In this document: positions 22,908 to 23,534 of the stretch, in pieces
Layout of the letters: every line of letters starts with the position of its first letter
Numbering within the stretch: the first letter of the stretch is position 1
Notes under the pieces: model-generated
Databases searched by the model: none
The model's input: only the letters and a program-made list of their open reading frames with translations
What the model was told of the DNA's origin: nothing
NCBI RefSeq assembly: GCF_023149035.1
Contig: NZ_JAHXMY010000003.1
Location: 1 to 64,000, forward strand
From: Microbacterium sp. EYE_78
GTDB taxonomy: Bacteria; Actinomycetota; Actinomycetes; Actinomycetales; Microbacteriaceae
DNA: 64,000 bases
Reading direction: 5' to 3'
Translations under genes and position numbers: made by a program

Positions 22908-23534
22908 TTACTCCGCCGGGGCGGAAGCGGGGGTCTGCTCGTCCTCGGCCGAGCCGCTGCGTGCATCGCGTGCGGCCTGCTTCGTCGCGGCGCGGGCCGC
23001 GTTCTGCTCGGTCTTGACCTCGGACTTGTTCTTGTGCGGCGCGACCACCATCACCATGTTGCGTCCGTCGATCGTGGGGTTGGACTCCACGGTGCCGAAC
23101 TCTGCGACATCCTCCGCGAACTTGCGGAGCAGACGCACACCCTGCTCGGGACGCGACTGCTCGCGACCACGGAAGAGGATCATCGCCTTGACCTTGTCGC
23201 CGGCCTGCAGGAAGCCCTCGGCGCGCTTGAGCTTGGTGATGTAGTCGTGAGCCTCGATCTTCAGACGGAACCGGACCTCCTTGAGGACGGTGTTCGCCTG
23301 ATTGCGCCGCGCTTCCTTGGCCTTCTGCGCAGCCTCGTACTTGAACTTGCCGTAGTCCATGATCTTGACCACGGGGGGCTTCGAGTTGGGGGCTACCTCG
23401 ACGAGATCGAGGTCGGCCTCCTGGGCCAGGCGCATGGCCACCTCGATGCGGACGACGCCGACCTGCTCACCCGCGGGGCCCACGAGGCGGACCTCGGGAA
23501 CGCGGATGCGGTCATTGGTGCGGGGATCGCTGAT
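22908..23534 (-). CDS. infC: translation initiation factor IF-3 (ATC start)
   Basis: 208 residues. The N-domain has the family signature [19 protein letters not shown] (residues 6-24), then the linker [11 protein letters not shown] and the C-domain with [12 protein letters not shown] and VVAPHK; a polar Ala/Glu tail of about 35 residues follows. No ATG, GTG or TTG lies in frame before this signature until an upstream stop. The only plausible start is ATC at 23532-23534, with AGAGGAG six nt upstream. The first available GTG (23483) would delete 17 conserved residues. Rare start codons in infC allow autoregulation in other bacteria because IF-3 itself rejects them. Confidence 0.95.

Follow-up and report, generated by a model that had tools for sequence, protein, structure and literature searches.

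Start codons of infC without third-base G and a structured infC leader RNA in Microbacterium sp. EYE_78 and other Actinomycetota

The infC gene of Escherichia coli, which encodes initiation factor IF3, is reported to start with AUU and to be under autocontrol by its product, as Butler is said to have described in 1987, and AUC starts occur in the infC genes of Myxococcus and Deinococcus. One study gives ATT as the infC start codon of E. coli and ATC as that of Streptomyces, states that IF3 thereby regulates its own synthesis, and notes that annotation misplaces this start in most Streptomyces species (PMC5472188). AUU is given for both E. coli and Bacillus subtilis (PMC1805508), and infC of Listeria starts with ATT (PMC13068326). 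Control of a different kind is described for the cluster infC-rpmI-rplT, which in B. subtilis is subject to termination driven by ribosomal protein L20 (PMC6097659, PMC10931766); the L20 leaders that have been described share a conserved AA dimer and two consecutive G-C pairs (PMC7247131). For Mycobacterium tuberculosis, a 326-nt infC 5′ UTR is given, its UTR/CDS ratios being 2.6 and 4.9; homology between the infC and infA leaders is also reported (PMC3207917).

The present study compares with these systems the infC locus of Microbacterium sp. EYE_78, contained in a stretch of 64,000 nucleotides (NZ_JAHXMY010000003.1, positions 1 to 64,000), here called the window (Table 1). Collectively, our comparisons make it very likely that the site of the infC start, the avoidance of G at the third base of its start codon and a structured core in its leader are all correctly identified. 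They indicate that infC is here translated from AUC, like the gene in nearly all members of the phylum sampled.

Table 1. Features of the infC region in the window.
Feature	Positions	Strand	Basis or remarks
infC (IF3)	22908-23534	minus	208 codons counted from ATC; TIGR00168, IF3_N, IF3_C
ATC start codon of infC	23532-23534	minus	sequence, ORF list, aligned codons in relatives
Shine-Dalgarno AGAGGAG of infC	23541-23547	minus	sequence; AGGAG invariant in 34 genus leaders
rpmI (L35), second gene of cluster	22668-22862	minus	PF01632
rplT (L20), third gene of cluster	22256-22636	minus	PF00453
Possible long helix C	23550-23620 (23620-23617 + 23614-23607 with 23550-23561)	minus	MFE fold, partly centroid
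Lower-leader hairpin B (GACAC/GUGUC)	23568-23590	minus	helix 3: three pairs with double changes
Lower-leader hairpin A (GGGUGGA/UUCCGCCC)	23591-23615	minus	helix 2: one-sided changes only
Lower-leader hairpin CGATG/CATCG	23620-23632	minus	helix 1: two pairs with double changes
Leader RNA core: AAGNGGR hairpin P2, then P3 closed by ACCYG/CGGGU	23681-23732	minus	R1, covariation, pattern
Hairpin P2 of core	23728-23715	minus	AAGNGGR
Hairpin P1 (CGGAG/CUCCG)	23735-23755	minus	both arms co-vary within genus, by eye; class-wide support weaker
TAGACT, candidate -10 of infC promoter	23765-23770	minus	similar hexamer conserved in genus; inference
Divergent DUF1844 gene, ORF as listed	23713-24183	plus	PF08899

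The product of the gene is IF-3 (TIGR00168 equivalog, 203 bits). A preliminary description of this DNA had given the coordinates of infC, its Shine-Dalgarno (SD) sequence and a gap of 6 nt to an ATC start, and each detail checked proved correct, the spacer between AGAGGAG (23547-23541) and ATC (23534-23532) being TCCCGC. The ORF list and the sequence likewise bear out its observation that the conserved N-terminus is preceded by no in-frame ATG, GTG or TTG after the last stop, the first such codon past the upstream stop being, as it had said, GTG 23483, 17 codons downstream of the ATC. Since Pfam IF3_N covers residues 6-75 counted from ATC (profile positions 1-70), a start at this GTG would cut 12 IF3_N positions.

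The comparison with relatives was made on infC loci found by family search in the genus (28), family (30), order (28), class (30) and phylum (30), among named loci (80) and in the class of genome G168 (20); the family, class and phylum loci are the best-scoring 30 of 59, 30 of 50 and 30 of 50 genomes with a match. The counts leave out L240 (G207), which lacks the N-terminus, and G023, G067, G212 and G226, which gave no match; they include L005 and L219, both ATC, which the motif script had missed and whose codons were added later, and they take L249/L250 as one gene, with GTC. Some loci come from the same genome, and 244 loci represent 240 distinct start regions. Because a rule that picked start codons by their SD made wrong calls for some genes (eight GTC in the class sample, L203 and L211), it was rejected, and codons were tallied by aligned position. 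Three oddities of the sampled loci may be recorded here: L065 lies on a contig filed as Stenotrophomonas maltophilia and carries a Microbacterium-like infC and leader, probably through contamination; the infC match at G165:C53:4054-4554 holds one in-frame TAA; and the matches in G184 and G229 are split in two pieces by a contig break or frameshift.

At the aligned start, the 246 Actinomycetota genes read carry 185 ATC, 25 ATT, 11 ATA, 20 GTC, 4 GTA and 1 ATG, so that third-base G is absent from 245 of them. All 28 starts in the genus are ATC, as are all 30 in the class (best 30 of 50); the family has 29 ATC and 1 ATT (best 30 of 59), the order 25 ATC and 3 ATT (28 loci), the named loci 60 ATC and 20 ATT (80 of 589 named stretches), and the phylum, read by eye, 13 ATC, 11 ATA, 1 ATT, 3 GTC and 2 GTA (best 30 of 50). 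The procedure recovered the known ATT of E. coli K-12 infC (CDS 1800096-1800638), and as an internal control rpmI, found by motif in the same loci, gave 226 ATG and 6 GTG (n=232). In 110 of the 243 Actinomycetota infC loci counted, the reading frame is free of ATG, GTG and TTG from the last stop to the N-terminal motif, and in some loci a stop codon stands 1-4 codons ahead of the AUH start. The other 133 have an in-frame NTG further upstream and for that reason do not by themselves prove an AUH start; in L198, L199 and L216 this codon falls within the SD, and in L216, where it is an ATG two codons upstream, the start is ambiguous. The choice between ATC and ATT may follow composition: among internal Ile codons, ATC accounts for 1278 of 1455 in ATC-start loci and 192 of 242 in ATT-start loci. 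The aligned N-termini and start codons of relatives, which the preliminary description had proposed as a check, thus agree with an ATC start, and the 246 genes indicate no normal start elsewhere for the family as a whole. Its suggestion that the logic of the E. coli AUU is at work in an actinobacterium accords with the comparison, whereas the implied peculiarity does not, AUH being the rule in the phylum sample. Its expectation that annotation tends to misplace this start is matched by the misannotation reported for most Streptomyces species (PMC5472188). Indeed, because the ATC, IF3 autocontrol and misannotation are all in print for Streptomyces (PMC5472188), the ATC finding is correct but known. 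What the survey provides is a rule for infC starts, namely that the third base is not G and the first is A or G; annotators restricted to NUG starts will go on truncating or extending the gene.

One class departs from AUH. Among 27 genomes of the class of G168, 25 gave an infC match and 24 a readable N-terminus, with 20 GTC, 3 GTA and 1 ATG, all at the same aligned place; the 20 further genes taken from this class account for 17 GTC, 2 GTA and the ATG (L248), which is the sole ATG among the 246 genes. Most of the GTC/GTA starts (L200, L202, L212, L225, L229-L239, L241-L247 and L249/L250) are preceded by an extended SD of the type GGAGGTGAT, and 17 of the 23 genes counted have no in-frame ATG, GTG or TTG. 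An out-of-frame ATG stands directly ahead of the GTC/GTA in 20 of the 23; it is absent in L230 and L242, which have an out-of-frame GTG instead, and in L243, the only gene without any canonical codon there. A frameshift reading of these genes was rejected, because no slippery run is kept (the G-run is not conserved in L241, L244 and L246) and the out-of-frame ATG belongs to the extended SD. In several loci of the class, including some among L229-L239, a hairpin of the GCACCGG/CCGGTGC type with a T-rich tail ends about 25 nt ahead of the GTC, directly before the SD. A GTA start also occurs in L226 (G171), and since this gene belongs to another family of the phylum, the change of the first base from A to G may have arisen more than once. 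Among the literature matches listed for the phrase “GTC start codon,” only PMC5472188 contains it, and the GTC/GTA class looks like a form of weak infC start that is new. It constitutes a natural experiment on what IF3 reads.

Two alternatives bear on the start codon. That translation really begins at GTG 23483, or at some other canonical codon, the similarity upstream being untranslated, has next to no probability in our estimation: this GTG is indeed the first in-frame ATG, GTG or TTG and has a GAGG 8 nt ahead of it, but the GAGG belongs to the codons of a conserved PEVRL, the 12 IF3_N positions would be lost, and the residues preceding the GTG are conserved throughout the phylum sample. A less extreme view takes AUC as a genuine start that serves no regulation, a weak codon fixed once and then inherited. 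The clustering of AUH types in lineage blocks, such as ATT in relatives of Arthrobacter, and the rough tracking of composition by ATC and ATT would suit it. Against it, ATG is found in 1 of 246 infC genes while the adjacent rpmI has ATG or GTG in 232 of 232, one class has shifted to GUC/GUA with the third base still other than G, and autocontrol is stated for infC of E. coli and Streptomyces (PMC5472188); we consider it unlikely. By analogy with these systems, we favor the regulatory reading, in which the non-G third base would probably cause IF3 to reject the codon, with infC translation rising when IF3 is scarce. Specifically, the third base of AUC would mismatch the initiator tRNA, free IF3 would reject initiator tRNA placed on a mismatching codon, and a fall in IF3 would allow translation of infC to rise.

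Upstream of the start lies a long leader. Within the genus, a strongly conserved block comes after the candidate -10 TAGACT, and a class-wide core of the form AAGNGGR-loop-YCCCACC-stem-GGGU was spotted by eye; a scan for sigma-70-type promoters gave no match at the candidate infC promoter. A pattern for the first half of the core occurs in 196 leaders out of 244 loci, E. coli being one of the 244, vs 6 occurrences in 1.56 Mb of other sequence from these loci. With zero mismatch the pattern occurs in the window's genome at the infC site only; with one mismatch it gives 7 matches there, vs 10 for a reversed control. A covariance model, R1, matches the window core with 48.3 bits, the window sequence being part of its training set. 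At E ≤ 0.01, R1 has exactly one match in 41 of 50 class genomes, at least 11 of which were in the training set, and none in the other 9; compared by eye, all 41 matches closely precede infC and share its strand, and a second copy of the core was not found at E 0.01 in any of these 41 genomes. In the phylum sample at E ≤ 0.1, R1 matches 15 of 50 genomes, 8 of them at infC (G000, G092, G117, G129, G138, G186, G190 and G200, three of which, G000, G186 and G200, had contributed to the training); the 7 weak matches elsewhere (E 0.02-0.065) were taken as chance. The core belongs chiefly to the class, and traces of it are seen in other classes.

Several measures indicate that the core is maintained as RNA structure. 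A search of 84 loci for the core gave a match in 82 (none in L167 and L169). Alignment A1 holds 81 of 168 distinct cores; rich in flanking sequence, it yielded 8 pairs only with RNAalifold, one of them with double changes. Because A1 aligned poorly in the flanks, A2 was made from 56 of its 81 sequences, picked for diversity and excluding rows with a misplaced closing GGGT. In A2, aligned with MAFFT and not fitted to structure, 56 cells show double changes vs 27.8 ± 5.4 in shuffles (0/500 as high) and 11-29 with slid pairs; further pair types number 25 vs 20.7 (10/500), and pairs with double changes 7 vs 5.5 (71/500). The model-fitted A4 gives 101 double-change cells vs 40.0 ± 6.2 shuffled and 8-35 slid, 34 further pair types vs 23.3 (0/500) and 9 pairs with double changes vs 7.0 (26/500). 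When hairpin arms were swapped between sequences, native arms paired better on average, hybrids being equal in 32% of cases for P1, 45% for P2 and 35% for P3; terminator arms, equal in 5%, are a biased comparison, having been chosen as hairpins. Folded alone, P1 and P3 have mean z of -1.22 and -1.61.

Between the core and the SD, the three lower-leader hairpins are paired in 93.4% of cells across 34 genus sequences vs 32-48% when slid, in an alignment (A3) that excludes two non-fitting leaders, L026, with an insertion, and L010, a genus leader without hairpin B. Double-change cells number 52 vs 16.7 ± 5.0 shuffled and 3-7 slid; the two measures that relatedness affects least, pairs with double changes (5 vs 5.1; 349/500 as high) and pair types (25 vs 22.5; 45/500), do not exceed shuffles. 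The loop of hairpin A, read by eye, carries an anti-SD-like ACUCCUCUU in several relatives, and ACTCCTCTT, complementary to the SD, in several. The possible helix C, which cannot form together with hairpin A, terminates next to the SD; in relatives it was read by eye. As a whole, the 261-nt window leader folds no better than shuffles (z -1.13; 29/200 as good).

The cluster heads away from a DUF1844 gene whose true start probably lies further inside the listed ORF, because that ORF overlaps the infC leader. This gene is divergent from infC in all 155 loci where it was found (it was not found in 89 of 244), and the gap between the two is 160-460 nt in all loci but three; the linkage may be functional. 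A strong hairpin with a T-rich tail occurs in the sense direction within 200 nt of the infC start in 49 of 241 leaders (40 distinct stems), whereas the antisense direction gives 4 of 241 and shuffled leaders 8.5 of 241 on average. Many of these leaders come from relatives of Arthrobacter, and 38 of the 49 hairpins end 41-69 nt ahead of the infC start. Where the region is divergent, there is no co-directional gene upstream whose transcription such a hairpin could terminate, so that it is most naturally read as an attenuator of infC. The scan gave no terminator-like site in the window's own infC leader.

The leader is not among described families as far as our searches extend: Rfam 15 gave no match in the window's infC leader even at E 10, and none in the leaders of 20 loci at gathering score. 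T-box and other described leaders were rejected on the same grounds, the sole match being to a microRNA family, far below gathering and within rplT. No actinobacterial infC or L20 leader was found among the open-licence papers listed by our searches, and the infC leader RNA of Actinomycetes, an infC-rpmI-rplT operon leader in kind, looks new. It matters in that the cluster encodes core parts of the translation apparatus and the phylum includes Streptomyces and Mycobacterium; such a leader would account for the long, over-abundant infC 5′ UTR of M. tuberculosis.

What the conserved stretch does can be read in more than one way. That it is a promoter or operator acting at the DNA level and not as RNA is very improbable: it does sit shortly downstream of the putative -10 element, and some covariation measures are not above shuffles, but paired changes are seen in hairpins with bulges and the slid controls are far lower. 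Taking the stretch as RNA, we suggest, at somewhat under even odds and by analogy, that the leader places a second control on infC-rpmI-rplT through L20, bound as to a mimic of 23S rRNA. A structured, covarying 5′ leader (its lower part more weakly so) precedes an operon that holds rplT, and L20 is the best guess because rplT belongs to the cluster, L20 controls the same genes in B. subtilis and the core has an AA dimer and two consecutive G-C pairs that may correspond to those of the described leaders; these, although invariant in A4, are in part fixed by the pattern used to collect the core. Compared with the core, the 23S rRNA of this genome offers only the short likenesses AAGUGG and GUGGAG near what we take to be the L20 site, which could be chance. 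A real leader RNA with another ligand (IF3, L35, a ribosome stalled on a leader peptide or some other factor) has a probability that also falls slightly short of one-half. IF3 itself is the main alternative: it is encoded by the first gene of the cluster, and the reported homology of the M. tuberculosis infC leader to the infA leader (PMC3207917) suits an initiation-factor signal better than L20. Set against this are the AA and G-C pairs of the core, which may match those of L20 leaders, and the single R1 match in each of the 41 genomes, with which no infA copy was seen.

If L20 is the ligand, it would recognize in the leader an imitation of 23S rRNA; IF3, L35 or a leader-peptide mechanism could take its place. 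In many relatives the read-out would be premature termination at the hairpin 40-70 nt ahead of the infC start; in the window leader, which lacks a terminator, access to the SD would be the more likely read-out. Joined with the start codon, this gives a tentative overall model, to which we assign less than an even chance, in which an undescribed, single-copy RNA confined to infC is the phylum's L20 sensor and AUC is the IF3 arm, replaced by GUC/GUA in one class. Were the model true, a new rRNA-mimicking scaffold would sense L20 in most Actinomycetes, one infC leader would sense both L20, through termination or masking of the SD, and IF3, through AUC, and in one class the IF3 arm would have shifted to GUC/GUA with an extended SD.

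Each described system thus resembles this locus in part. The infC gene of E. coli shares with that of the window the IF3 product, an AUH start and an SD ahead of it; in E. coli, however, the codon is AUU and the gene lies 3 nt behind thrS, whereas in the window the codon is AUC and infC is the first gene of a divergent unit, preceded by a long leader. Streptomyces infC has the same ATC codon, belongs to the same phylum and is subject to the same reported misannotation, and nothing essential differs (PMC5472188). In Streptomyces sigR, a GTC start with the RBS AGGAGGTG is repressed by IF3 (PMC5472188); the GTC/GTA class is like sigR in its non-G third base and, mostly, its extended SD, and differs in that the gene is infC itself, in another class. 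The L20 leader of B. subtilis, like that of the window, precedes infC of the same cluster, and its terminator has a counterpart ahead of the start in many relatives, but leaders of this type are said to be narrowly distributed to Firmicutes (PMC6097659, PMC10931766) and the window leader has no Rfam match. Finally, the L20 leaders of Gammaproteobacteria, Firmicutes and Deltaproteobacteria, including the Deltaproteobacterial candidate (PMC7247131), have an AA dimer and two consecutive G-C pairs that may have counterparts in the core described here, which differs from them in scaffold and phylum.
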